A DNA stretch of 58,358 nt, from positions 1 through 58,358 of the forward strand of contig JAQXPK010000005.1 in assembly GCA_029100605.1 (NCBI GenBank), in the 5' to 3' direction. The stretch's first letter is position 1. Every line of letters starts with the position of its first letter. The DNA is from Bacillota bacterium (lineage in GTDB: Bacteria; Bacillota; Clostridia; Oscillospirales; Oscillospiraceae). Positions 391-13,129 of the stretch are shown piece after piece. A program made the position numbers and the translations under genes. The notes under the pieces were generated by a model. It ran no database searches and was not told the DNA's origin. It worked only from the letters and a program-made list of their open reading frames with translations.

Positions 391-403
391 GCTGTATCGT
401 TCA

Positions 404-438
404 AGGCCGCCGGTTTTCAGTACGAAAACCGGCGGCCT
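404..438 (+). terminator. strong hairpin after DUF3892 gene
   Basis: A 15-bp stem (404-418 with 424-438, core GGCCGCCGGTTTTC) with a 5-base loop. No U-tract follows, so it is either a Rho-independent terminator lacking its tail or an mRNA-stabilising hairpin. Confidence 0.55.
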
Positions 439-792
439 CAGCGCGCCCCGGCGCAAAACAGGCACGGCCTTCCGCAGTCGGATTCCCCGGATAATGCCAT
501 CCAAAACACCCATTTTTCCCGCTTCCGGGAAGGGGATACAGGTTTTTCCACGGCATACAGATGTCCGTATGCAATAGTCACAAAAGAGTTGGCGATTTTA
601 TTTCGTTTTTCAGCAAAAAGTTGCGTTGCAATTCAATGAACCATATAATATAATGTAGAATAAGTTTGTATAGGGTGGGTATTTACCCAGAAGGCAGGCA
701 AAATAGAACGATGAGAATCGGCTTGTCCGCCGTTTGTGTCAGCATCACGCTCTCGCCGGGGTTCCCGCAATGTCAAAGAAAGGAAAGATTCT
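439..792 (+). promoter_or_regulatory. promoter and 5' leader of the peptide ABC operon
   Basis: No gene is seen here. At 621-654 there are two overlapping sigma-A promoters: TTGCGT (621-626)-17 bp-TATAAT (644-649) and TTGCAA (626-631)-17 bp-TATAAT (649-654). The resulting leader is about 130 nt and ends in AAAGGAAAG just before the ATG at 793. I recognise no known riboswitch in it. Confidence 0.65.
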
Positions 793-1722
793 ATGAACTC
801 CAAGACCTTATTGTATATTCTAAAGCGTATTGCGCTGGCCATTTTGACAGTTTGGGTTGTCATAACGGTCACGTTCTTTGTCACCCGCGCCGTTCCCGGC
901 GGCCCCTTCATGGCGGAAAAAGCGATTTCCAAGGAGGCACAGGCCGCCCTGGAAGCCAAATACGGTCTGGACAAGCCTGTCATGGTGCAGTATGTCACCT
1001 ACCTGAAGGACGTGGTTACGAAGCTGGACTTCGGCCCCTCTCTGAAACTCAGAGGCCGTATGGTGATCGATGTCATCGCCGACGGCATGAAAACCTCCGT
1101 TAAGCTGGGCCTGATTGCCGCCTTCATCGCCCTGACGACGGGCATTGTTCTGGGCTCCGTTGCCGCCCTGCGGCGGAACACCCTGCTGGATAAGAGCATC
1201 ATGGTCATTGCCACCGCCTTTGTTTCTATGCCCTCGTTCATCATGGGCACTCTGCTTTTGCTGCTGTTCGCGGTTCACTGGCCGATCTTCCCTGCCAACG
1301 GCTCCACCACCCAGGGCTTGGTTCTGCCCATTATCACCCTGTCACTGTATCCCATGGCCTATATCACCCGGCTGACCCGCAGCTCCATGCTGGACGTTTT
1401 GGGTCAGGATTATATCCGCACTGCCCGGGCAAAAGGTGTTTCTCAGTTTAAGATTATCTTCGGTCACGCGCTGAAGAACTCCCTGATTCCCGTCATCACT
1501 TACTTTGGGCCGATGCTGGCTTATATCGTCACCGGTTCTCTTGTTGTGGAGCAGATTTTCGCCGTGCCCGGCATCGGGCGCGCCTTCGTCACCTCCATTA
1601 TCAACCGTGACTATCCTTTGATTATGGGCACCACCATTGTGCTGGCCTGCCTGATTGTTGTTATGAACCTGGTCAGCGATATTCTGTACAAGGTTGTTGA
1701 CCCCAGAATCACCCTCGAGTAA
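793..1722 (+). CDS. oppB: peptide ABC transporter permease (OppB/DppB family)
   Basis: First membrane subunit of an oligopeptide/dipeptide importer, 309 residues, the usual length for the family. It has an N-terminal membrane helix (about residues 9-30), the PGGPF segment typical of DppB N-termini, and the BPD_transp_1 core. Near residue 215 it carries the EAA-loop sequence YIRTARAKG that docks on the ATPases. The ATG at 793 is chosen because AAAGGAAAG lies just upstream; the longer reading frame from 736 lacks a ribosome site and begins with a basic non-membrane stretch. First gene of the five-gene operon; 11 bases separate it from the next. Confidence 0.92.
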   Translation: MNSKTLLYILKRIALAILTVWVVITVTFFVTRAVPGGPFMAEKAISKEAQAALEAKYGLDKPVMVQYVTYLKDVVTKLDFGPSLKLRGRMVIDVIADGMKTSVKLGLIAAFIALTTGIVLGSVAALRRNTLLDKSIMVIATAFVSMPSFIMGTLLLLLFAVHWPIFPANGSTTQGLVLPIITLSLYPMAYITRLTRSSMLDVLGQDYIRTARAKGVSQFKIIFGHALKNSLIPVITYFGPMLAYIVTGSLVVEQIFAVPGIGRAFVTSIINRDYPLIMGTTIVLACLIVVMNLVSDILYKVVDPRITLE

Positions 1723-1733
1723 GGAGACAGAGA

Positions 1734-2792
1734 ATGAAAAAGAAGTTTTTTTCCATGCACGTGGATGTAGATGACTTCATCCCCGCAACCGACGAAGAAA
1801 AGGCATATATGGTGCAGATGCGCCCCTCCACCACCTTCTTTAAGGATGGTATGAAGCGCTTGATGAAGAACAAGGTCGCGGCCGTGAGCATGTTCCTGAT
1901 TATCTTCATCACCCTGGGATCGATTATTATCCCCTTCTTCTGGCCCTATAAATACGACAAGATGCTGGGCAATACCCCTGGTAAACCCATGGATTCCTCC
2001 TACAATAACCTTGCTCCCTTCCAGTACGGCGAAACGGAGCAGAAGCGAATTGCCGCCGGCGAGAAGGTCTTCCCCCACATCTTCGGCACAGACGCCCAGG
2101 GTCGTGATTACTTCATCCGCGTGGTCTATGGAACCCGGATCTCCCTGGCTGTTGGTTTCTTTGCCAGTATTATTGTGCTGATTATCGGTATGACTGTAGG
2201 CTCTATCTCCGGTTATATCGGCGGCAAGGTCGATATCATTATCATGCGGATTGTGGATATCATCTATTCCCTGCCGGATACCCTGATGGTCATCCTGCTG
2301 GCCTCCGTGATGAAGGTTAGTTTGGGGGCGCTGCTGGAAGGGACGGTTCTGGAAAAGCTGGGAACCAATATGGTCTCCCTATTCCTGGTGTTCGGACTGC
2401 TGTACTGGGTGTCCATGGCTCGCCTGATCCGTGGCCAGATTCTGTCCCTGCGGGAACAAGAATATGTCCTGGCCGCCCAGGCCACCGGTGCCAAGGCCGG
2501 CTGGATCATCCGCAAGCACCTGCTTCCCAACTGCATCAGCGTGGTAATCATCTCCACCGCTCTGCAAATTCCCAACGCCATCTTTACCGAAAGCTACCTG
2601 TCCTTCCTGGGTCTGGGCGTTAACGCTCCTATGCCCTCTCTGGGCTCTCTGGCTTCTGATGCGTTGAACGGCATCAACAGCTACGCCTACCGTCTGATCA
2701 TTCCCGCCATCGTCATCAGCTTGATTGTACTTTCTCTGAACCTGTTTGGCGACGGCCTGCGGGATGCATTCGACCCCAAACTGAAGAATTAA
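1734..2792 (+). CDS. oppC: peptide ABC transporter permease (OppC/DppC family)
   Basis: Second membrane subunit, 352 residues, pairing with the upstream OppB-like protein. It starts with a soluble ~45-residue cytoplasmic segment, then a membrane helix (about 50-68). The OppC signature region FGTDAQGRDYF follows near residue 115, then five more helices and the EAA loop YVLAAQATGAKAGWI. OppC members normally read GTDxxGRDxF here, so the match is good. GGAG follows directly on the upstream stop at a suitable distance. The substrate is inferred to be peptide from family and operon context only. Confidence 0.92.
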   Translation: MKKKFFSMHVDVDDFIPATDEEKAYMVQMRPSTTFFKDGMKRLMKNKVAAVSMFLIIFITLGSIIIPFFWPYKYDKMLGNTPGKPMDSSYNNLAPFQYGETEQKRIAAGEKVFPHIFGTDAQGRDYFIRVVYGTRISLAVGFFASIIVLIIGMTVGSISGYIGGKVDIIIMRIVDIIYSLPDTLMVILLASVMKVSLGALLEGTVLEKLGTNMVSLFLVFGLLYWVSMARLIRGQILSLREQEYVLAAQATGAKAGWIIRKHLLPNCISVVIISTALQIPNAIFTESYLSFLGLGVNAPMPSLGSLASDALNGINSYAYRLIIPAIVISLIVLSLNLFGDGLRDAFDPKLKN

Positions 2793-2805
2793 GGAGGAAG
2801 CCGCT

Positions 2806-3807
2806 ATGGCATTGTTAGAAGTAAAAGACTTGCACACTTCCTTCTTTACCCCCGCAGGAGAAGTGAAGGCTGTTAACGGTGTGTCGTTTAATCTGGACCG
2901 GGGCAAGGTGCTGGGTATTGTGGGCGAGTCCGGCTCCGGTAAGTCCGTCACCGCCTATTCCATTATGCAGATTCTGGAAAAGACCGGTAAGATTGTCTCC
3001 GGTTCCATCAAATTTGACGGGCAGGAGCTGGTGGGAATCGGCGAGGCCGGCATGAAGGACATCCGGGGCAATAAAATTTCCATTATCTTCCAGGATCCCA
3101 TGACCTCCCTGAACCCAACCTACACCATTGGTCATCAGCTGATGGAGGCGATTCTGCTGCACACTTCCCGGAACAAGCAGCAGGCCTATGACCGGGCAGT
3201 GGAAATGCTGCGGCTGGTCAATGTCAACGAGCCGGAGAAGCGGATGAAACAGTATCCCTTCGAGTTCTCCGGCGGTATGCGTCAGCGGGTTATGATCGCA
3301 ATGGCTCTGGCCTGCGAGCCGGATATTTTGATCGCGGACGAGCCCACCACTGCCCTGGATGTCACCATCCAGGCTCAGATTCTGGAGCTGATGCAGAGCC
3401 TGCAGAAGGAACTGGGCATGGCGATTATTCTCATTACCCATGACCTGGGCGTTGTGGCTCAGATGTGCGATGAAGTGATTGTCATGTACGCAGGCTCCAT
3501 CTGCGAGCAAGGCACCGCCGACGAGGTTTTCTACAATCCCCGGCACGAATATACCAAGGGTCTGCTCCGTTCGATTCCCACGGTGGACAATGACGGAAGC
3601 CGGCTGCATCCCATTACCGGCACCCCCATTGATCTGCTGAATATGCCCAAGGGCTGTCCCTTCGCGCCCCGGTGTGACGCCGCAATGAAGATCTGTATGC
3701 GGGAGCGCTGCCCCCGGATGCAGATCAATGATATGCACCAGGCGTCCTGCTGGATGAACGTTAAGGAAGCCTTTGACAACGGAGAGCTTGAGGAGGCGGA
3801 GTCTTAA
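2806..3807 (+). CDS. oppD: peptide ABC transporter ATP-binding protein (OppD/DppD family)
   Basis: Cytoplasmic ATPase subunit of 333 residues. Walker A is GESGSGKS (about 44-51), the signature is FSGGMRQR, Walker B is ILIADEP, and the switch histidine lies in ITHDLG. The C-terminal oligopeptide extension carries the cysteine cluster CPFAPRC...C...CP (about 283-305), typical of OppD/DppD proteins that bind a 4Fe-4S cluster of unclear role. AAGGAGG precedes the start by 8 bases. It is paired with the next gene, which starts at the base after its stop. Confidence 0.93.
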
Positions 3808-4788
3808 ATGAGCGAATTTGAAAATCTGGTAGAGGTCAAGCACCTCAAGGAATACTTCCCCATTAACACCGGCCTGTTCAAGACCACCCCTCTGAAGGCC
3901 GTGGACGATGTGTCCTTTGCCATCCGCAAGGGCGAAACCCTGGGCTTAGTCGGCGAGTCCGGCTGCGGAAAAACCACGGTTGGTCGTACCATCCTGCACC
4001 TGTATAAGCCCACCGACGGCGAGGTCTGGTTCGAGGGCAAGAAGATTCAGTCCAAGCAGGACATTCTGGAATACCGCAAGAAATCCGCCATGGTCTTCCA
4101 GGATCCCTATTCTTCTCTGAATCCCAGAATGACCGTTTCCGACATTATTGCCGAGCCGCTGGATGTCCATCATCTGTACAGCAGCAAGGCCGAACGCCAG
4201 GAAAAGGTTCTGGAGCTGATGTCCAAGGTTGGCCTGAATTCCGAGCACGCGAGCCGCTACGCTCACGAATTCTCCGGCGGTCAGCGCCAGCGAATCGGCA
4301 TTGCCCGGGCTTTGGCCATGGGGCCTGAGTTCATCGTGTGCGATGAGCCGGTATCCGCGCTGGACGTTTCCATTCAGGCACAGGTCATCAATATGTTTGA
4401 TGAGCTGCAGGATGAAATGGGACTGACTTATCTGTTCATTGCCCATGATCTTTTGGTCGTGCGTCACATTTCCGACAGAATCGCTGTCATGTATTTGGGT
4501 AAAATGGTGGAGATGGCGGATGCCAACGAGATTTACGATCATCCCCTGCATCCCTACACCAAGTGTCTGATGTCCGCCGTTCCCCTCCCCGACCCCAAGA
4601 AGGCGCGGGAAAACAAGCGGATCGTCCTTTCCGGCGACATTCCCAGTCCCCTGCACGCCCCCTCCGGCTGCCCCTTCCGCACCCGCTGCCCCTATGCGAC
4701 AGAGGAATGCGCGGCAAGTATGCCCGAGTTCAAGGAGGTCGCTCCAGGTCACTACGCCGCCTGCCACAACCTGGACAAGTGTAACTAA
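3808..4788 (+). CDS. oppF: peptide ABC transporter ATP-binding protein (OppF/DppF family)
   Basis: Second ATPase subunit, 326 residues. It shows Walker A GESGCGKTT, signature FSGGQRQR, Walker B FIVCDEP and switch IAHDLLVVRHIS. The C-terminal oligo_HPY extension has the pattern GCPFRTRCPYA...C. Its ATG abuts the oppD stop, and GGAGG in the end of oppD serves as ribosome site, so translation is probably coupled. With OppD it would form the heterodimer driving peptide import. An 80-bp gap without genes separates it from the binding-protein gene. Confidence 0.93.
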   Translation: MSEFENLVEVKHLKEYFPINTGLFKTTPLKAVDDVSFAIRKGETLGLVGESGCGKTTVGRTILHLYKPTDGEVWFEGKKIQSKQDILEYRKKSAMVFQDPYSSLNPRMTVSDIIAEPLDVHHLYSSKAERQEKVLELMSKVGLNSEHASRYAHEFSGGQRQRIGIARALAMGPEFIVCDEPVSALDVSIQAQVINMFDELQDEMGLTYLFIAHDLLVVRHISDRIAVMYLGKMVEMADANEIYDHPLHPYTKCLMSAVPLPDPKKARENKRIVLSGDIPSPLHAPSGCPFRTRCPYATEECAASMPEFKEVAPGHYAACHNLDKCN

Positions 4789-4868
4789 CCCTGTTTCATC
4801 ATCCGCCGTTTCATATGCCGTTATGAGATGCGGATTTTGAATAAAATTCATTATTTTGAGAAAGGAAA

Positions 4869-6674
4869 ATGAGAATGAAAAAACTGATCGCTTTGCTTCT
4901 GGCAGTCGTCATGGTTCTGTCTCTCACCGCCTGTGGCGGTAAGACCGAAGAACCCGTTGCAACCAATGGTGCAACCACTGCTACCGAAGTCGCAGGCATG
5001 ACTCCCGCCGAGAAGGCCGCTGCCGAGGCTGAAATTCGTTACGCCATCGGCCTGCTGTTCGACCGCAACTACATCGTTGAGAACGTTGCCCAGAACGGCG
5101 CTGTCCCCGCTTCCTCCTTTGTCGCCATGGGTATGACCGATGCCGACGGCTCTCAGTTCTATGAGAACGCCGGTCACAGCGACGAGTATGTGGGCTACTA
5201 CAGCGTGGACAAGGACGCTTTCGAGGCCAACTACGCGGAGGCTTACGCCATCCTGTCCAAGTACTACGAGGTGGACGAGAACGGCATGTTCACCAACTTC
5301 CCCACTCTGACCTACCTGTACAACACCTCCGAGGGTCACAAGGCCATCGCTGAGTACCTGCAGTCCGCTCTGGCTGCTGTGGGTATCACCATGAACCTGG
5401 AGAACCAGGAATGGAACACCTTCCTGAACACCCGTAAGGCCGGCGACTTCTCCGTTGCCCGTAACGGCTGGCTGGCTGACTACAACGATCCCATCTCCTT
5501 CCTGGATATGTGGACCACCGGCTCCGGCAATAATGACGTGCAGTTCGGCAAGGGCGACAACGCCACCGTGGCTGCTTACGACCTGGATCTGACCGATCTG
5601 GGCTACGATGTCAAGGTTGAGGACGGCACCTGGGCTGAGACCTACGATGTCATCATCCCCCTGATCAAGAGCTGCACCGACACCAACACCCGTTACGAGC
5701 TGATGCACCGCGCCGAGGATCTGCTGATGTCCACCGGCTGCATCGTTCCTCTGTACTTCTACACCGACCTGTATATGCTGGACGACGGTGTTGAGGGCTT
5801 CTACTCCACCCCCCTGGGCTTCAAGTTCTTCCAGAACACCACTCTGAACGGCGCTGGCGATTCCCTGGCTGTCTGCCTGGCTTCCGAGCCTGACACCATT
5901 GATCCCGCCCTGAACTCCGCTGTTGACGGCGGCACCATGTGCTCCCACCTGTTCTCCGGTATGGCCAAGTGGGCTCAGAAGGACGACGGCACTCTGGAGA
6001 TCGTTGCCGACTGCGCGACCGAGCTGTCCGAGCCTGTTGTCAATGACGACGGCACTGCCACCTACACCTACACTCTGAAGGACGGCCTGAAGTGGTCCGA
6101 CGGTCAGGATCTGACTGCCAAGGACTTCGAGTTTGCCTGGAAGCGCGCCGCTTCCTCCGCTCTGGGCGCTGACTACGGCTACATGTTCGAGGTTATCAAG
6201 GGCTATCCCGATGACCTGGCTGTCACCGCCGTGGACGACACCACTCTGGAAGTCACCCTGAACAACGAGCTTCCCTACTGGAACGAGCTGATGGCCTTCC
6301 CCACCTACTTCCCTGTTCGTGAGGATGTTGTCTCCAACGAGGCTTGGGCTACCGATCCTTCCACCTACGTCTGCAACGGCCCCTACAAGATGGCTTCCTG
6401 GGATCACAACTCCCTGATCACCCTGACCAAGAACGAGAACTACCATGATGCCGACAGCGTCACCATGAACGAGCTGAAGTTCTATCTGTCTGACGATGCC
6501 AACAACATGCTGACCAACTTCAAGAACGGCACCTGGCAGCTCATCGACGATGTTCCCACTCAGGAGATCTCCACTCTGAAGACCGATTATCCCGACGAGT
6601 TCAAGGTCGCCGGTCAGATCGGCACCTACTACGTCTGCTGGAACATCAACCAGCCCCTGCTGCCCGAGGCTTAA
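4869..6674 (+). CDS. circularly permuted peptide-binding lipoprotein (SBP family 5)
   Basis: Extracytoplasmic receptor of the importer: a 601-residue lipoprotein with a hydrophobic signal and lipobox LTAC (Cys22). The internal order is unusual. After a Thr/Glu-rich linker (23-43), residues ~44-327 match the C-terminal half of OppA-type proteins, from the segment IRYAIGLLFDRNYIVENVAQ to its normal end GFKFFQ. A short linker NGAGDS (327-332) follows. Residues ~333-601 match the normal mature N-terminal half: SEPDTIDPALN, the domain with GLKWSDGQDLTAKDF and GPYKMASW, ending at YYVCWNINQPLLPEA just before the stop. The frame is open, codon use is strongly biased throughout, and a terminator follows. 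An alternative ATG at 4875 has better ribosome-site spacing. The permutation is my reading from memory of the family. Confidence 0.88.
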   Translation: MRMKKLIALLLAVVMVLSLTACGGKTEEPVATNGATTATEVAGMTPAEKAAAEAEIRYAIGLLFDRNYIVENVAQNGAVPASSFVAMGMTDADGSQFYENAGHSDEYVGYYSVDKDAFEANYAEAYAILSKYYEVDENGMFTNFPTLTYLYNTSEGHKAIAEYLQSALAAVGITMNLENQEWNTFLNTRKAGDFSVARNGWLADYNDPISFLDMWTTGSGNNDVQFGKGDNATVAAYDLDLTDLGYDVKVEDGTWAETYDVIIPLIKSCTDTNTRYELMHRAEDLLMSTGCIVPLYFYTDLYMLDDGVEGFYSTPLGFKFFQNTTLNGAGDSLAVCLASEPDTIDPALNSAVDGGTMCSHLFSGMAKWAQKDDGTLEIVADCATELSEPVVNDDGTATYTYTLKDGLKWSDGQDLTAKDFEFAWKRAASSALGADYGYMFEVIKGYPDDLAVTAVDDTTLEVTLNNELPYWNELMAFPTYFPVREDVVSNEAWATDPSTYVCNGPYKMASWDHNSLITLTKNENYHDADSVTMNELKFYLSDDANNMLTNFKNGTWQLIDDVPTQEISTLKTDYPDEFKVAGQIGTYYVCWNINQPLLPEA

Positions 6675-6700
6675 GTCCCGGATCAGCTGAGACAAAATCG

Positions 6701-6733
6701 CTCCCGCCTTCCGAAAGGAAGGTGGGAGTTTTT
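6701..6733 (+). terminator. Rho-independent terminator of the peptide ABC operon
   Basis: A 12-bp stem CTCCCGCCTTCC / GGAAGGTGGGAG with a GAAA tetraloop, followed by TTTTT. It closes the operon and lies just past the 3' end of the convergent acyltransferase gene. Confidence 0.9.
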
Positions 6734-6739
6734 CGTAAA

Positions 6740-8038
6740 TCAAGCGTGAACGGCTTTTCTTTGGGTCTTACTCAGCTTGTACAGCTCCTCCGCCGCCAGG
6801 CGGGTTCGCGCCACGACGTCGCCGCCGCCCTTGGGGAAGCAGTAATACAGACGCTGGTTGTCGCCGATACAGATGATGTCTCCGATTTCATACCAATAAT
6901 AGTCGGCGTAGAGGCCATAGCTGGCTGTGGGCTTCTGAGTATAGCGCAACCGCCCGTCACAGCCGGTGAGTGTGAACCCATCCCGATCGTGGGTCAGATG
7001 CCCTTGTCCCACCTTGTATATGGCCTTAAAATCCACCATGATGGCAATGTCCACATCCAGATCCAGCCGGTAGGTGCCGTCCAAAAGCTGCTGACGCACC
7101 TGCTCCCGCTCCCAGCGATACCAATCTGGAATGTGGGAAAACTCCGTCTGTCCAGCCGTGGCTTCCATCTCGCCCAGAGGCGTCAGCGTCCAAATCTTTC
7201 CGCACCCACCGCAGGTCAGGGTGGTTCCCTTACCCACCATCTTTCCTTCTGCCCCACAGTGGGGGCACCGGTAGAGAATCCGGTTCAGGCCGTCCGCCCG
7301 GAAATCGTCGGTAATCTCGATGCCGTTTTCCTTCTGCCAGCGGAAATGGTCGAAGGAAAAGGCCGTGTCCAGCCCGTCGGACAGCTCTTTCACGGTTTTT
7401 GTCTCAACGTCTTCCCGGGTGTAGAGCAGCCGCACCTTCGCCGTCACCGGTACGCTCTTTCGCACTTGAAGTTCATTATACAGCGGATTGCGGCTGAAGG
7501 CGCCGAAGGTCTCGATCATCACCACGGGCACATCCAGCTTTTTCAACAGGATCCCCATTTTCCGGGGCAGCGGCGTACAGGTGCCGTCGAAGGAGTAGCT
7601 GGCCTCGGGATACATGAGGACGCTGGTTTTCAGGGTTTTCAGGCAGTAGGCCATGTCCTGTACCAGGGTCAGATCGGTGACAAATTTCTGGGTGGGTACG
7701 CAGCCGATGGTACGCATGAGCCAGGCCATCAGGCCGCCCATGCCCACGAAGCCGTCGGAGGTGCAGATGATGTTGAAGGGTCTGGGGTAGAGAATGCGGT
7801 AGGCAATCTGCAGATCCAAAAAGCAGGAGTGGTTCATGAGAATCAGGCACGGTTCACCCTCTCCCAGCTGCTCCATGCCCTCGCTGGTATAGGAGAACCG
7901 GGTTCCCGCGAGGCCGGGGATGGTCAGCCCCCGGATAAAAGTGCGCCAAAAGAGATTCGGCTTTTTCGGGTGTTGGTGGGGGTAATGGGGCAGCGCCATG
8001 ACTTTCTCAAAGTCCATTTCCTTGACAGTGGTTTTCAT
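6740..8038 (-). CDS. PlsC-like 1-acyl-glycerophosphate acyltransferase with zinc ribbon
   Basis: Predicted acyltransferase of 432 residues acting at the membrane face in phospholipid synthesis. The HX4D catalytic box is in MNHSCFLD (about residues 81-88), and the later FPEG-like box is probably YPEASYSFDG. The second half adds a four-cysteine zinc ribbon (CPHCG...CGGCG, about 255-285) and a C-terminal beta-rich region, making it longer than plain PlsC (~240 residues). The start at 8038 is set by AGGAGG 8 bases upstream. Acyl and acceptor substrates cannot be told from sequence. No operon partner on this strand. Confidence 0.78.
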   Translation of the reverse strand: MKTTVKEMDFEKVMALPHYPHQHPKKPNLFWRTFIRGLTIPGLAGTRFSYTSEGMEQLGEGEPCLILMNHSCFLDLQIAYRILYPRPFNIICTSDGFVGMGGLMAWLMRTIGCVPTQKFVTDLTLVQDMAYCLKTLKTSVLMYPEASYSFDGTCTPLPRKMGILLKKLDVPVVMIETFGAFSRNPLYNELQVRKSVPVTAKVRLLYTREDVETKTVKELSDGLDTAFSFDHFRWQKENGIEITDDFRADGLNRILYRCPHCGAEGKMVGKGTTLTCGGCGKIWTLTPLGEMEATAGQTEFSHIPDWYRWEREQVRQQLLDGTYRLDLDVDIAIMVDFKAIYKVGQGHLTHDRDGFTLTGCDGRLRYTQKPTASYGLYADYYWYEIGDIICIGDNQRLYYCFPKGGGDVVARTRLAAEELYKLSKTQRKAVHA

Positions 8039-8179
8039 AATGCGGCCTCCTGGTTGTGGGATTGGGGATCTGCTGAGATTCGTTTCGCAGCGATTATACC
8101 AGATGTTCACAATTTCGTCAAGATTCCGCCCTGTCCTGGGCGCGTCCTCTCCCGAATTGTTCCGCAGGAAAGAAAGTGC

Positions 8180-8208
8180 TTGACAAATCTGTGCTTACTG
8201 TATATACT
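8180..8208 (+). promoter_or_regulatory. sigma-A promoter of the GntR-ABC operon
   Basis: TTGACA (8180-8185), a 17-bp spacer and TATACT (8203-8208): near-consensus, overlapped by the operator below. Confidence 0.85.
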
Positions 8209-8227
8209 GATAATATACAGTAAGCAC
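8191..8227. promoter_or_regulatory. GntR operator, perfect 15-bp inverted repeat
   Basis: GTGCTTACTGTATAT (8191-8205) and its exact reverse complement ATATACAGTAAGCAC (8213-8227) flank a 7-base spacer and cover the -10 box. Position and symmetry point to autorepression by the GntR protein encoded immediately downstream. Confidence 0.85.
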
Positions 8228-8243
8228 ACTCTGGAGGGACGAA

Positions 8244-8621
8244 ATGAACATCCTGATCGACAATAAGAGCGGCCTTCCCATCTACGACCAGATTTTCTCC
8301 CAGATCAAAGCCCAGATCATCAGCGGTGAGCTTCGGGAAAATGAGGCGCTGCCCTCCATCCGAAATCTGGCAAAGGATCTGCACATCAGCGTTGTGACCA
8401 CCAAGCGGGCTTACGACGAGCTGGAAAAAGAGGGCTTCCTATATACTATCGCCGCCAAGGGGTGCTTCGTGGCGCCGAAGAATGTGGAGCTTCTCCGGGA
8501 GGAGACGCTGAAAACAATGGAACGGCACATCGATCAAATCGTCGGTCTGGCAAAGTCCATCGGCCTTCGCCCCGGCGAGGTGTTGGACATGGTCAAATTT
8601 GCGATGGAGGAAGAATCATGA
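8244..8621 (+). CDS. GntR-family repressor (YtrA type)
   Basis: DNA-binding regulator of 125 residues. The N-terminal winged helix contains LPIYDQIFSQIKAQIISGEL and LPSIRNLAKDLHISVVTTKRA, followed by a short C-terminal dimerisation helix pair, as in YtrA-type GntR proteins of 120-130 residues. These normally repress an adjacent ABC exporter operon and are relieved by cell-wall stress or antibiotics. Here the promoter carries a perfect palindrome over the -10 box, and the next gene overlaps by ATGA. GGAGGG precedes the ATG. The inducer is unknown. Confidence 0.9.
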   Translation: MNILIDNKSGLPIYDQIFSQIKAQIISGELRENEALPSIRNLAKDLHISVVTTKRAYDELEKEGFLYTIAAKGCFVAPKNVELLREETLKTMERHIDQIVGLAKSIGLRPGEVLDMVKFAMEEES

Positions 8622-9460
8622 ACGCATTGGAAATTCGGGACTTAACCAAGCACTATGGCGGCTTTTCCCTGGAGCATCTGAACCTGACCCTGCCCAAGGG
8701 CTGCATCATGGGTCTCGTAGGAGAAAACGGCGCGGGAAAAAGCACCACCATCAAGCTGATTCTGAACGTCATCCGCCGGGACGGCGGCACCGTCACTCTG
8801 CTAGGCAAGGACAACCGGGAAAACCTGGCCTTGACTAAGGAGGATGTGGGCGTCGTGCTGGATGAAGTGGGCATCTCCGCCTGCCTCACCGCCCGGCAGG
8901 TGGGACGCATTATGAAAGACATCTACCGGAATTGGGATCAGGCCGCCTTTGACGGGTTCCTGACCCGCCTGGCGGTGCCCACGGACAGGAAATTCAAGGA
9001 ATTCTCCCGGGGCATGAAAATGAAGCTGGGCATCGCCATCGCCCTGTCCCACCATGCCAAGCTGCTGATTCTGGACGAGGCCACCAGCGGCCTGGACCCG
9101 GTGGTGCGGGACGAGGTGATGGACATTTTCATGGAATTCACCCGGGACGAAGCCCATTCCATCCTGATCTCCTCTCACATCGTCAGCGATCTGGAGAAGA
9201 TCTGCGATTACATCGCGTTTCTGCACAAGGGTAAACTCTTGCTCTGTGAGGAAAAAGACCGCCTGAAGGAAGAATACGGCGTGCTCCACTGCACCCCCCA
9301 GGAGGCGGATGCCATCCCCGCCGCCGCAGTCATCGGGCGGAAAACCTCCGCCTACGGCTGTGAGCTGCTGGTAAAGCGCGACCAGGTGTCCGGGAATCCC
9401 ACCTTCAGCCCGGTGGATATTGAGCAGCTGTTCATCTTCATGGCAAAGGAGGAAAACTGA
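8618..9460 (+). CDS. ABC transporter ATP-binding protein (YtrB-like)
   Basis: ATPase of 280 residues for the ABC-2 type exporter formed with the next gene. Walker A is GENGAGKST, the signature is the divergent FSRGMKMKLGIA (SRGM in place of SGGQ, common in YtrB/BcrA-type exporters), and Walker B is LLILDEAT. The start at 8618 overlaps the GntR stop (ATGA), giving translational coupling; longer frames upstream lie inside the GntR gene. The physiological substrate is unknown. Such cassettes often act in envelope stress or bacteriocin/antibiotic export. Confidence 0.9.
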   Translation: MNALEIRDLTKHYGGFSLEHLNLTLPKGCIMGLVGENGAGKSTTIKLILNVIRRDGGTVTLLGKDNRENLALTKEDVGVVLDEVGISACLTARQVGRIMKDIYRNWDQAAFDGFLTRLAVPTDRKFKEFSRGMKMKLGIAIALSHHAKLLILDEATSGLDPVVRDEVMDIFMEFTRDEAHSILISSHIVSDLEKICDYIAFLHKGKLLLCEEKDRLKEEYGVLHCTPQEADAIPAAAVIGRKTSAYGCELLVKRDQVSGNPTFSPVDIEQLFIFMAKEEN

Positions 9461-9461
9461 T

Positions 9462-10076
9462 ATGAAGGGTCTGCTTCGGAAGGACTTCTATATGCTCTGG
9501 AGCTACAATAAGATGTTCCTCATCCTCATTTTCGGATTTATTGCGCTCTCCGCCCTCCCCGTCAACGGAGATAACACCTTTTTCTTCTACTATCCCTGTA
9601 TTCTGGGCAGCGCGCTTCCCGTCTACCTTTTGGCCTACGACGAGGCCGAGCACTGGTGCACCTTCTGTGACACCCTGCCGGTGACACGGCAGCAATTCGT
9701 CGCCGGGAAATACCTCATGGGTCTAATCTGTGCCGGCATCATCTCCATTCTCTCCGCCGCCGCTGCCGGGCTGCGCATGGTTCGCAGCGGTGGGTTCGAT
9801 TCGGTGGACTTTGGAGATCAGCTTGCCATCCTGGCAGCCATCGCTCCCCTGCCCGCCGCGCTGTGCCTGCCGCTGATGTTCAAGTACGGCACCCAGAAGG
9901 GACGCATCGCTCTCTTCGTGGTGATTGGCCTGTTTTGCGGCGTCACCATTCTCGTGGATCCGCCAGAGCTGTCCGGCCTATCGTTTCCCATCTGGGCTCT
10001 GCCGGTGCTGTCTGCGGCGCTCTTTGTCATCTCCTGGCTGCTGTCCGTCCGGTTCTATCAGAAGCGGGAATTCTGA
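9462..10076 (+). CDS. ABC-2 family membrane permease
   Basis: Membrane subunit of 204 residues with about six hydrophobic helices. It begins with KGLLRKDFYMLW, typical of ABC-2 permeases in GntR-ABC cassettes, and has a cytosolic loop LAYDEAEHWCTFCDTLPVTR after the second helix, a known hallmark of this permease group. It starts one base after the ATPase stop, with AAAGGAGG inside that gene as ribosome site. Third and last gene of the operon, followed by a bidirectional terminator. Confidence 0.85.
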   Translation: MKGLLRKDFYMLWSYNKMFLILIFGFIALSALPVNGDNTFFFYYPCILGSALPVYLLAYDEAEHWCTFCDTLPVTRQQFVAGKYLMGLICAGIISILSAAAAGLRMVRSGGFDSVDFGDQLAILAAIAPLPAALCLPLMFKYGTQKGRIALFVVIGLFCGVTILVDPPELSGLSFPIWALPVLSAALFVISWLLSVRFYQKREF

Positions 10077-10086
10077 ACAGCGTGCC

Positions 10087-10121
10087 AAAAATCCCGGGCG
10101 GCGTACCGTCCGGGATTTTTT
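10087..10121. terminator. bidirectional terminator between convergent operons
   Basis: A 15-bp stem (10087-10101 with 10106-10120, one G-T pair), loop CGTA, T-tract on both strands (ATTTTTT on +, A-run on the left). It serves the ABC cassette on + and the S-component gene on -. Confidence 0.9.
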
Positions 10122-10130
10122 CGCTTTCTG

Positions 10131-10676
10131 TTACCGCTTCAGCGCCTTGCGCAGAACCGGGACGATCAGCAGGGCGACGCCGCCGCCGATGAGGGCGGTG
10201 ATCAGCTGGGGCCAGCTGAAGGTAGCGGGCAGCGCCTTGAGCATCGGCTCCTTCAGCGTGCCGGCAGCCAGCAACGAGGACGCCATCACGCCGCAGATGA
10301 TCTTCACCACGATGAGATACAGCGCGGCAAATTTTGCCAGGGCTGCCACCAGCCAGGCGGCGATCTGCCTGCCAATCTCCCTGCCGTTCTCGCCTGCGAT
10401 GAGCCGCAGCAGCACCACGAACACGGTGTTGCCCACCATGATGGCGGGCACCGTGAGAATCTGCGGGGCAATGCCCAGCAGGAATGCCAGCACCGGAGAA
10501 ATCACCGCCACGGTGATGCCGCTGCCCATACCCGCGACCAACACCGTGATTGCCAGCACCGCGTTGACGCAGGAGCCGGTGACCAGCTGACCAAAGCCCT
10601 TGGTCAGCGCCTGCAGCGCCACAAGCAGTGCCAGCATAATGGCGGTTTCCGTAATCCAACGTACCTTTTTGTTCAT
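10131..10676 (-). CDS. ECF transporter S component (substrate unassigned)
   Basis: Hydrophobic protein of 181 residues with about six membrane helices. The N-terminus KKVRWITETAIMLALLVALQ resembles substrate-capture subunits of energy-coupling factor vitamin transporters. It would dock on a shared EcfAAT module encoded elsewhere. AGGAGG lies before the ATG. It follows a TM1266-type gene by 18 bases and shares its leader. The ligand could be a vitamin or precursor; I cannot place it in ThiW, RibU, PanT or another named group from sequence alone. Confidence 0.75.
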   Translation of the reverse strand: MNKKVRWITETAIMLALLVALQALTKGFGQLVTGSCVNAVLAITVLVAGMGSGITVAVISPVLAFLLGIAPQILTVPAIMVGNTVFVVLLRLIAGENGREIGRQIAAWLVAALAKFAALYLIVVKIICGVMASSLLAAGTLKEPMLKALPATFSWPQLITALIGGGVALLIVPVLRKALKR

Positions 10677-10694
10677 AAACCCATCCTCCTTCTG

Positions 10695-10952
10695 TTATTC
10701 CTTGGAGATGACGCCTGAGTAGGCCGTTTTCACGCTGACCCCCACCAGGCTTCCGATTTTTCCGGAGAGGGCGGCAATGGTATTCTGGGGCGCGTCCAGC
10801 GCCACAGCAATGATGCTGACCCCCCGCTTGCGGTAAGGAATGCCCATGCGCCCGACGATAAACTCCGCGTATTCGTGGAGCAGGGCGTTCAGGCGTTCCA
10901 CCATCTCCCCGTTTTCCACAATGATGCTCATCACCGCAAGTCTCGTTTCCAA
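10695..10952 (-). CDS. TM1266-family iron-only hydrogenase system putative regulator
   Basis: Small ACT-like protein of 85 residues starting METRLAVMSIIVEN. The core IVGRMGIPYRKRGVSIIAVALDA matches the TM1266 family, annotated as a putative regulator of the [FeFe]-hydrogenase maturation system and structurally a NikR-C/ACT-like fold. A TTG start at 10952 is preferred: GGAGG sits 8 bases upstream, and the length then equals the family norm (~80-85). Longer reading would place the start inside the leader terminator. No hydrogenase gene is in the window, so the regulatory link is family knowledge only. Confidence 0.8.
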   Translation of the reverse strand: METRLAVMSIIVENGEMVERLNALLHEYAEFIVGRMGIPYRKRGVSIIAVALDAPQNTIAALSGKIGSLVGVSVKTAYSGVISKE

Positions 10953-11096
10953 CGGAAACACCTCCAAACACAAAAATTGCCGTGACCCTGACGGCACGGC
11001 AACAGCAAGCTACCCCGGAATGTTCTCCGCGGTAAAATACCATATTCGCACCTTTCAGGCAGCCGCATATGGCTTACTGTCAGGATCCTTGTCATT
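10953..11096 (-). ncRNA. candidate riboswitch/attenuator leader upstream of TM1266-ECF S operon
   Basis: On the minus strand the ~140-nt leader runs from about 11090. Bases 11079-11087 can pair over 9 bp (one G-U) with 10984-10992. That second segment lies in the loop and base of a terminator (stem TTGCCGTG / CACGGCAA at 10995-11002 and 10977-10984, then U5 at 10972-10976). Between them are two further helices: CCAUAU/AUAUGG around a GAAA-capped hairpin, and UACCGCGG/CCGGGGUA with one mismatch. Mutually exclusive P1 and terminator is riboswitch architecture. It does not match TPP, FMN, cobalamin, THF or preQ1 consensus as I remember them. Confidence 0.6.
10972..11002 (-). terminator. attenuator terminator in the leader
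   Basis: 8-bp stem, 10-base loop and U5 tail on the minus strand, located 20 bases before the TTG start of the TM1266-family gene. Confidence 0.75.
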
Positions 11097-11125
11097 AGCA
11101 TAACACGTTCCCGGTGCTTTGTCCA
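11097..11125 (-). promoter_or_regulatory. promoter of the TM1266-ECF S operon
   Basis: On the minus strand, TGGACA (11125-11120), a 17-bp spacer and TATGCT (11102-11097). Confidence 0.6.
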
Positions 11126-11179
11126 GCCCTGTCCATGGAGAAAAAGTCAGTCTCTTTTTGGCGGATTCCCACAAAAGGC

Positions 11180-12514
11180 TCACGTTCTCCCCGCTCTCGC
11201 CGCCCGGCGTTCCAGCTTGGTGCGGAAGTGGCGTTCCAGGCTGGGCACCATGAGCAGACACACCAACGCGGCGGTAAAGCCGCCGTTGTACAGGCACATA
11301 CCGCCGTGGAGCACGGGCACCGTGGTGACCATGCAGAAGTGGGCCATCGCCGCCACCATGCCGTAAAACCACCCGTATTTATCCGCAATGGGGCTGAGGC
11401 CGTTGGCGTAGCACAGCCCAACGATGATGGACTGGGCGCTTAAATACTGGGTGAACGTACCGCCGGTCAGGGGAGAAAGCAGCCGGAACAGCCAGGACGC
11501 TGAGGCGTAACCCAGCATAATGGGCCAGATATTCCCCGGGTGGGAGCCGGAATTGCAGGTCGCCAGCATACAAAAGACGACGCCGAAGGTCACGCCGTTC
11601 ATCTCCGCGCCGATGAGGTTATAGTAGGCGAGAATGAACAGCCCGTACATACCCACGTTCATCAGCATGGCAGCGTTGTCATAGGTGGCGGCAAAGTCCA
11701 CCACCTGATCCGGATCCGTCAGCAGCTTCCAGTAGTCCCTGGGGCGGCAGCCCATGGCGAGAGCCACAATCACGCAGGCGGAAAACAGAATAATGCAGAA
11801 GGTATTGACGATGACGGGTGACGCCACCGACAGGTCGGAAATCGCCTCCGGCACCGGTACGCCCATGGCTTTATACAGCACACCCTGGAGCAAAAACGCG
11901 GTCATTCCCACGGGCAGAGCAGCGGAATACAGGGCGAAGCCCTTGTGCACTCTGGGGGAGTTTTCCAGCCCAGCCGGGAGAAAGAAGCCCACAAACGCCC
12001 CCACGGCAATGGCGAGCACCACGCCCATAGGGGAAAAGCCCACCACCTCGGCGTTGGGATAGCGCACCAGCAGCTCGGAAATAAAGGGCGCGACGCCGGT
12101 GGAAAAGAGCATGGCATTGGAATGGTCGCCGATGGGCACCTTCCGCACCAGGCAGAACAGCACCACGCCGAACATGGTCGGCCACATATTGAGAATGTGG
12201 ATGCCCCAGGAGCCAAAGCCCGTGGTGAGAATGGTCACCAGCACCGCCGCGTCATTGGCCTTTTTGCCGGGAATGCAGTAGACGGCGGTACACACCAGTC
12301 CAACCAGTGCCATATTCAGGAATGTGGCGGCATAACCGCCGATGGAGAAGAAATTGGTGGATGCTTTTGTAGGCGCGCCCAAGATTTTCAGCAATCCGGA
12401 GAGCATCTGCCCCCGGTCGGGCATACAGAAGGCCGCCGCAAGAAAGCTCAGGCTGAAGCAAAGGAAAAAGCCCTTCAGAAACGTATTTTCGGGAAGCGCA
12501 TTCCATTTTCTCAT
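11180..12514 (-). CDS. DUF1576 multi-spanning membrane protein
   Basis: Predicted integral membrane protein of 444 residues with about 10-12 helices, matching DUF1576. Characteristic segments are the internal repeat-like pair GFGSWGIHILNMWPTMFGV and CNSGSHPGNIWPIMLGYA, and the C-terminal HGGMCLYNGGFTAALVC. The repeated W-P-I/T-M-x-G motifs suggest two inverted structural repeats, as in secondary transporters; function is unknown. The ATG at 12514 with AGAGAAGG upstream is chosen over a long N-terminal extension reading through repeat DNA. Single gene. Confidence 0.8.
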   Translation of the reverse strand: MRKWNALPENTFLKGFFLCFSLSFLAAAFCMPDRGQMLSGLLKILGAPTKASTNFFSIGGYAATFLNMALVGLVCTAVYCIPGKKANDAAVLVTILTTGFGSWGIHILNMWPTMFGVVLFCLVRKVPIGDHSNAMLFSTGVAPFISELLVRYPNAEVVGFSPMGVVLAIAVGAFVGFFLPAGLENSPRVHKGFALYSAALPVGMTAFLLQGVLYKAMGVPVPEAISDLSVASPVIVNTFCIILFSACVIVALAMGCRPRDYWKLLTDPDQVVDFAATYDNAAMLMNVGMYGLFILAYYNLIGAEMNGVTFGVVFCMLATCNSGSHPGNIWPIMLGYASASWLFRLLSPLTGGTFTQYLSAQSIIVGLCYANGLSPIADKYGWFYGMVAAMAHFCMVTTVPVLHGGMCLYNGGFTAALVCLLMVPSLERHFRTKLERRAARAGRT

Positions 12515-12600
12515 GGTAGTACCTTCTCTCTTCTCTGGGATACCTCTATTAAACCACACTTTTCCGCCCCTGTCCAGTACAGGGAAGAAATAATGCCGCC

Positions 12601-12945
12601 AAATAGCAGTTTTGCGGCGAGTCGCCGCTGGCAATGCGTGCCCGGGTGGTTTATAGTCGTTACGCCATTGGGCGTTCATTAAGGTATGATTGCCCCTGGC
12701 AATCATGATGATTTTGATTCGCTGCGCGGAGCACCACGCTCGGTTCGTTACAGGGCGGAAAATTGCAGTTTGCGGGGATGCCCCCGCGGGCAATGCGTGC
12801 CCAGGTGGCCTTTAATCGTCACGCCATTGGGTGGACATTAAGGTATGATTGCCCCCGGCAATCATGATGATTTTGATTCGCTGCGCGGAGCACCACGCTC
12901 GGTTCGTTTCATGGTACCAAATTGCAGTTTGGCGCGCAGCGCCCA
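12601..12945. repeat. tandem direct repeat, ~159-bp unit, 2.2 copies
   Basis: Two nearly identical units (about 12601-12759 and 12760-12918) and the start of a third (12919-12945). Each holds GCAATGCGTGCCC, a GATTGCCCC-GGCAATC hairpin and the shared run GATGATTTTGATTCGCTG. No reading frame spans them. It looks like duplicated non-coding palindromic repeat DNA rather than a gene or CRISPR. Confidence 0.85.
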
Positions 12946-13129
12946 AGGCTTCTCCTTGAGGAGAAGCTGGCAAAAATCTATGATTTTTGACTGATGAGGT
13001 GTGCAGTACCCGTGTACGATAAGGAAAGCATTTCGGCGAATTGGGACAGGGTAACGCCGCTACGGCGGCGACACCTCATCCGTTTCGCCTGACGGCGAGC
13101 CACCTTCCCCTCAAGGGGAAGACTTTGGT
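12946..13129. mobile_element. REP/MITE-like palindromic element
   Basis: The ends AAGGCTTCTCCTTGAGGAGA and TTCCCCTCAAGGGGAAGACT form imperfect ~27-bp terminal inverted repeats, each itself a hairpin. Internal GATGAGGTG / CACCTCATC and GCCGCTACGGCGGC add more pairing. Elements of this design are abundant in Faecalibacterium-like genomes. No transposase; mobilised in trans, if at all. Confidence 0.7.

Follow-up and report, generated by a model that had tools for sequence, protein, structure and literature searches.

A naturally circularly permuted OppA-type peptide-binding lipoprotein and the recurrence of its chain order among orthologues

The DNA considered here, which we call the window, is a stretch of 58,358 nt on the forward strand of contig JAQXPK010000005.1 from the assembly GCA_029100605.1 of a gut bacterium of the Bacillota. 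It carries an operon of the order oppB-oppC-oppD-oppF-oppA, in which the four upstream genes are identified by their Pfam matches and the last gene, oppA, encodes a relative of the peptide-binding protein OppA with the two halves of its chain swapped. More specifically, a lipoprotein signal peptide and lipobox are followed by a spacer of 21 residues, by the half that is normally C-terminal (the C half, from the helix IRYAIGLLFDR through the family's usual C-terminus), by the linker NGAGDS, and by the half that is normally N-terminal (the N half, from the usual mature N-terminus through the hinge), with the stop codon directly after NINQPLLPEA. The open reading frame (ORF, 4869-6674) is complete and specifies 601 amino acids from its first ATG or 599 from the ATG at 4875; the latter is the more likely start because it is better spaced from the GAAAGG element and agrees with homologues beginning MKKL (Table 1).

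The swapped order emerges from comparisons with both a family profile and a solved structure. The SBP_bac_5 profile (PF00496) matches the protein with 228.8 bits (cut-off 32.4) in two stretches that depart from the collinear N-to-C order: profile positions 194-367, at 4962-5534, precede positions 11-213, at 6036-6662 (E-values of 7.9e-29 and 1.5e-40, respectively, in the genome search). Likewise, in alignment with Bacillus subtilis OppA (8are), residues 332-592 of the window protein correspond to chain positions 21-286 and residues 53-224 to positions 294-450, and the ends of these matches place the break between 286 and 294. The canonical orthologue L024 is collinear with 8are and has a single PF00496 stretch (5-367), and each of four further SBP_bac_5 genes identified alongside the window gene in its genome has one canonical stretch. 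The alignments to a solved OppA and to L024 rule out that the family order had simply been taken the wrong way round. Both halves are thus homologous to one canonical protein, with their order swapped, the old ends joined and the new ends at one site, and the gene retains a recognizable lipoprotein signal and lipobox together with a linked oppBCDF. These sequence comparisons support the view that the window protein is a genuine case of natural circular permutation, with the cut at the hinge between domains I and III; it is a permuted relative of OppA rather than an ordinary SBP_bac_5 member, and probably works like OppA. They also bear out a preliminary description of the locus, which had proposed reversed halves in an open frame, new ends at this hinge and old ends joined by NGAGDS, and which had correctly placed the stop at the hinge, omitting only the final alanine before it.

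Table 1. Coordinates of the permuted oppA gene, its parts and its operon partners in the window
Feature	Position	Strand	Basis
oppB permease	793..1722	+	PF00528 (queried from 799); start chosen from ORF
oppC permease	1734..2792	+	PF00528, PF12911
oppD ATPase	2806..3807	+	PF00005, PF08352
oppF ATPase	3808..4788	+	PF00005, PF08352
GAAAGG ribosome-binding site, 9 nt 5' of ATG 4875	4860..4865	+	sequence
Lipoprotein signal peptide, last residues LTA	4869..4931	+	sequence; start 4869 or more likely 4875
Lipobox cysteine (LTAC, residues 19-22)	4932..4934	+	sequence only
Spacer, 21 residues, from lipid anchor to permuted core	4935..4997	+	sequence
C half (domain III plus final strands of domain I), usually the second half, now the first	4998..5846	+	Pfam, 8are alignment
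Linker NGAGDS, usual C-terminus to usual N-terminus	5847..5864	+	sequence; by-eye comparison with canonical L024
N half (domains I and II), usually the leading half, now the trailing one, with NINQPLLPEA at its end	5865..6671	+	Pfam, 8are alignment
Stop codon at domain I/III hinge	6672..6674	+	sequence
Terminator-like hairpin, 13 pairs	6700..6729	+	hairpin scan

The preliminary description had proposed a search for the same order in related genomes, where it proves to be widespread. We denote the window's order CN and the canonical order NC. Some match at an E-value of 0.001 was found in 86 of 99 genomes (the window's own included), many of these to the signal peptide or to a part only. The loci from the window's genus (L008-L029) comprise 16 of CN order (L008-L023), five of NC order (L024-L028) and one N half alone; 14 of the 16 match the window protein end to end, the others being L019, cut at residue 567, and L022, which is without the first part of the C half. 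The best 120 database proteins include 118 of CN order, counting the window's own record, and two odd fusions. Far outside the genus, the CN order is found in the single-contig genomes G772 (3.12 Mb) and G928 (3.04 Mb), with oppBCDF directly 5' in the former. Family members with the same linear order, which the preliminary description had regarded as a refutation, are therefore abundant; yet other loci carry, at the same operon place, canonical orthologues that are up to 87% identical to them, and hence the permutation is real and recurrent. Because the CN order is conserved in many species, chance offers no alternative. Several handles used below refer to the same gene (L007, L117 and P0002; L009 and L093; L008 and L038; L024 and L094; L090 and L119).

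The stop points of the CN genes compared are nearly identical, falling within about 10 residues after the strand ...YYVCWNIN or ...YYYIFN, and the ratio of nonsynonymous to synonymous substitution rates (dN/dS) among permuted genes is 0.1-0.3, with purifying selection on both halves, which points to a function. Among database proteins, a permissive lipobox pattern is present in 119 of 119 of CN order, in 76 of 77 and 110 of 119 of two further permuted orders (CNC1 and CNC2, respectively; see below), and in 20 of 29 of NC order. Regardless of chain order, oppF lies directly upstream of oppA in 101 of 110 loci (L007-L116), the remaining nine being five with too little upstream sequence and four that are unlinked; oppBCDF also precedes all five of the larger CNC2 loci and the L214 gene discussed below. 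Operons of CN order also occur in records labelled Coriobacteriaceae or Atopobiaceae (L057, L059-L063, L096); identities there are 60-68% for the oppA halves and about 72-84% for OppB-F, a pattern suggestive of transfer between phyla. In four of these (L059, L060, L061, L096), a second, canonical opp system directly follows the CN operon.

By the evidence of the trees, the CN order is one that arose more than once among orthologues. A tree of the unpermuted operon partners OppB, C, D and F joined (42 rows, the window's own short locus not included; IQ-TREE, LG+G4) requires at least five order changes, unites the CN rows in none of 200 bootstrap trees, and rejects a single CN clade in the approximately unbiased (AU) test (p 6e-119); a single clade is likewise rejected when the constraint covers just the Oscillospiraceae clade's 12 CN rows (p 0.0014) or these together with L090 (p 5e-49). 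In trees of oppA itself, with its halves re-ordered, at least six changes are needed in 43 rows (AU p 0.0008), eight in 147 rows and nine in 158 rows with FastTree, and 10 in 95 rows, where the starred branches alone force four changes of CN. The AU test on the 95 rows rejects monophyly of all 32 CN rows (p 2e-72), of those without the ten distant ones (p 8e-35) and of the 16 window-like rows (p 0.008). As the sub-groups were named after inspection of the trees, the test that takes in every CN row is the only clean one, and the 147-, 158- and 95-row trees include one or two downstream paralogues of CN loci (L059, L096 or L060) labelled NC. Nearly all distant relatives have the canonical order, apart from a distant CN clade (L205, L210-L212).

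The cleanest case of an order switch is L090, which is CN, against the canonical L108. The permuted and canonical members of this pair are 87% identical; their genes share two blocks, of 840 and 815 bp, that are 80-81% identical in DNA and stand in exchanged positions, and the signal peptide and the flank through oppF are collinear. The oppA tree and the operon tree both group L090 with the canonical L107 and L108 (99/97* in each). Just 3' of the L090 gene, at 9856-10380, lies what is left of the C half of a second, diverged oppA (32% identity).

The CN order is one of several re-arrangements of this chain. Four orders are common in the sets examined, namely NC, CN, CNC1 and CNC2, and a fifth was seen once. 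CNC1 has the form C(~100-283)-N-C(1-~92), with the cut in the loop before PTLTYLYN, and CNC2 the form C(~184/212-283)-N-C(1-185), ending in SGNND(C/V)QFG; the latter accounts for 120 of 120 proteins among the matches listed, and its order gives a single, normal-looking Pfam stretch. In L137, an oppA of CNC2 order is split into two frames by a stop or frame change. A pool of 501 rows (excluding P0001, P0020, halves shorter than 220/190 residues, and P0332, a CNC2 protein whose short head segment was lost by the filter) has 169 CN, 123 CNC2, 107 CNC1 and 102 NC, and the 158 rows below 85% identity have 61 NC, 39 CN, 36 CNC1 and 22 CNC2; these counts reflect what the queries pull in and repeats of single genes, and are not natural frequencies. 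The fifth order, N(118-272)-C-N(2-121), is found in L214 (5821-7623) of Subdoligranulum variabile TSDC17.2-1.1, on the circular, 215-kb OY725879.1. It is one ORF with a lipobox behind oppBCDF and a Ser/Ala-rich C-terminal tail, in which residues 442-558 correspond to 8are 16-132 and residues 54-441 to 8are 138-522. When this order was sought elsewhere, 18 of 394 genomes of the window's taxonomic order were matched (E 1e-90), and no match listed extends into the moved part. Thus, three of the four permuted orders are cut in the C half and one, the single case, in the N half, and we dropped the notion that the anchor is always moved to domain III because L214 is cut in the N half.

From these sequence comparisons, we hold it very probable that the window gene makes a working peptide-binding lipoprotein of an OppABCDF system, its chain circularly permuted in place. 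It would catch peptides outside the membrane and hand them to OppBC, with the fold and peptide binding of OppA. In canonical OppA, domain I comprises residues 1-44, 169-270 and 487-517, domain II residues 45-168 and domain III residues 271-486. Given these borders, the lipid anchor of the window protein would be attached at the hinge, where domain III starts, and not to domain I, and the lobes would be joined by one chain crossing instead of two. The two ends of OppA lie close together and several loops tolerate a cut, and for these reasons a tandem duplication of oppA could succeed if the copies fused in frame and the outer parts, being redundant, were then lost. Duplication of this kind is the standard, textbook model of permutation (PMC3320104), and it is the most likely origin here; one-step excision and reinsertion would be another possible route.

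The preliminary description had likewise invoked a tandem duplication with loss of the outer halves, and this remains plausible inasmuch as relatives do carry tandem oppA copies: two canonical ones in L204, five CN ones in L205 (G934, 2840-12990), and CN pairs in L210 and L212. The lineages with such copies are not, however, the ones in which the clean recent switches took place, and a true intermediate was not found. Besides P0001, no protein above 690 aa appeared among the best 120 of 7,997 matches to a P0001 query, and P0001 itself (N-C-N, 879 aa, on a 3.5-kb contig) is canonical-like to about residue 430 and CN-like after it; it looks like a chimera, of assembly or recombination, rather than a clean intermediate. 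Two other candidates were also set aside: in P0020 (716 aa, CN), about 110 residues are repeated in frame (104 of 111 identical), an intragenic tandem duplication, and the 1172-aa frame of G864 is in fact two separate canonical genes in tandem (L204). Beside the CN genes, no remnant of a lost half was found at an E-value of 1e-4, the extra matches being diverged paralogues of 20-33% identity, and no junction repeats that would permit the order to flip-flop were found in the three regions tried (the window, L090 and L108).

Several observations weigh against the interpretation set out so far. The structure model of the window protein is only fair (mean predicted local distance difference test score of 71.9, predicted template modelling score of 0.68), and the structural comparison hardly touches the C half. 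Among the distant rows, the GW-D-DP motif was found in only six of 19 CN and 19 of 24 canonical ones, and the named records are nearly all metagenome-assembled genomes. The unlinked loci are L022/L069 (one gene, with an incomplete C half), the fast-evolving L023 (CN), which has 46-51% identity to the window protein within the genus, and the N-half fragment L029; L022/L069 and L023 are perhaps orphans or decaying copies. As for the trees, they were built with LG+G4 or FastTree, with no mixture model, and on hand-chosen rows for the 42-, 43- and 95-row sets; trees of the N half and of the C half alone disagree on some rows (nine versus six changes); canonical L094-type genes fall inside a CN clade in the operon tree and not in the oppA trees, and L047-type CN genes move too; and some switches are each represented by a single genome, namely L090 (with its identical copy L119), L045 and, by its place in the operon tree, L040. 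Recombination within or of oppA is likely, and the count of switches is therefore uncertain, a return from CN to the canonical order being only possible.

Among the competing explanations, a collapse of two oppA copies or strains into a scrambled contig during assembly or binning might be suspected for a genome of 143 contigs and 84% completeness, all the more so as P0001 does resemble a chimera of canonical and permuted chains. The 16 other CN loci of the genus, of which 14 match over their full length, the origin of the CN records from several projects and, by contig names, several assemblers, the single-contig relatives of the same order and the purifying selection on both halves leave this with hardly any credibility, and for the family it is in effect refuted. 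A single ancient permutation, with the present mix arising by transfer of whole oppA genes between lineages, would fit the single CNC2 clade, the single CNC1 clade of the operon tree (97/96*; though the oppA trees need two CNC1 changes) and the apparent movement of the operon between phyla seen in the Coriobacteriaceae records. We nevertheless judge it quite improbable, given the rejection of one CN clade in both kinds of tree and the position of L090 beside L107 and L108 in both; because that grouping is the same for oppA and its operon, L090 did not obtain its oppA by replacement with a foreign CN copy.

As to what maintains the new orders, we give a slight preference to neutrality, whereby tandem duplication is frequent, OppA loops tolerate cuts and drift fixes whichever order remains. 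The tandem copies in L204, L205, L210 and L212 are consistent with this, as are orthologues of different orders that keep the same operon, motif and selection pressure, and L214, whose N-half cut means that the anchor is not always moved to domain III. Against it stands the recurrence of nearly the same hinge cut in separate CN lineages, which suggests constraint or benefit, although constraint alone would suffice. An adaptive alternative, in which shifting the anchor off domain I and onto domain III or the hinge alters presentation to OppBC or to the wall, seems rather unlikely: all three common permuted orders anchor the C half, and a similar idea was raised for TpMglB-2 in its report (PMC4990184), but L214 anchors the N half, and canonical and CN orthologues have closely related permeases. 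Similarly doubtful is the broader proposition that OppA chain order is labile in Clostridia and some Coriobacteria, re-cut at least 10 times at four loops, returns included, and selected through re-siting of the anchor. We lean towards neutral change with strong constraint on the site of the cut.

The window protein shares with OppA/DppE (SBP_bac_5, PF00496; B. subtilis OppA 8are, Salmonella OppA 1ola) its family, operon partners, the GW-D-DP motif, the predicted fold of the tested parts and a lipoprotein signal as in Gram-positive members; it differs in having the C half before the N half and new termini at the domain I/III hinge. The closest precedent is another lipid-anchored ABC binding protein, TpMglB-2 (Tp0684) of Treponema pallidum, which is likewise naturally circularly permuted (PMC4990184). 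As described in the available text of that paper, it is a sugar-binding Type I protein, classed as 'Type Ic / Cluster Bc' with relatives in Gram-positives, in which a poorly conserved part of the N lobe has moved, and one topology is described. The window protein is from another family, with fully alignable halves and several orders among its orthologues, and falls outside Type Ic / Cluster Bc: PF00496 is its sole Pfam match, and its best solved relatives are OppA, DppE and MppA. DNA methyltransferases and saposin/swaposin are also natural circular permutants (PMC3320104), though, as far as the available part of that source goes, their orders separate distinct genes or families, whereas in OppA the differing orders belong to orthologues that occupy a single operon position and are up to 87% identical. 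Among the matches listed from the open-access full-text literature, none was to a permuted protein of the OppA or SBP_bac_5 kind. The preliminary description knew of no described OppA permutant with a native lipobox, and it is likely that no permuted OppA is in print.

Natural permutation as such is well known; the surprise lies in the number of orders and in the switches among close orthologues. It is usually inferred between old, diverged families whose intermediate steps are lost, whereas differences of order at up to 87% identity in one operon position make mechanism, intermediates and fitness effects testable with pairs of living species. OppA thus appears to have been re-cut more than once in evolution while keeping its likely job. 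There is also a warning for annotation: among the matches listed, the protein names are silent about the swap, and a domain or structure search built on a single order detects only part of a permuted protein.

Returning to the locus itself, the preliminary description took promoter, operon and terminator to be intact. The operon is borne out by its Pfam matches, and a terminator-like hairpin follows oppA, with nine terminator-like sites in 400-6800 against 5.2 expected from shuffling. The promoter rests on one weak site 5' of oppB (626-654), the sole plus-strand candidate in the same region (five found against 4.0 expected), and the 80 bp separating oppF from oppA yielded no promoter-like site. 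An antisense open frame of 630 aa (4851-6743, minus strand) spans the whole permuted gene and is probably a by-product of codon use. The converging gene at 6740-8110 on the minus strand resembles, by eye, a 1-acylglycerol-3-phosphate acyltransferase with a zinc-ribbon-like stretch.
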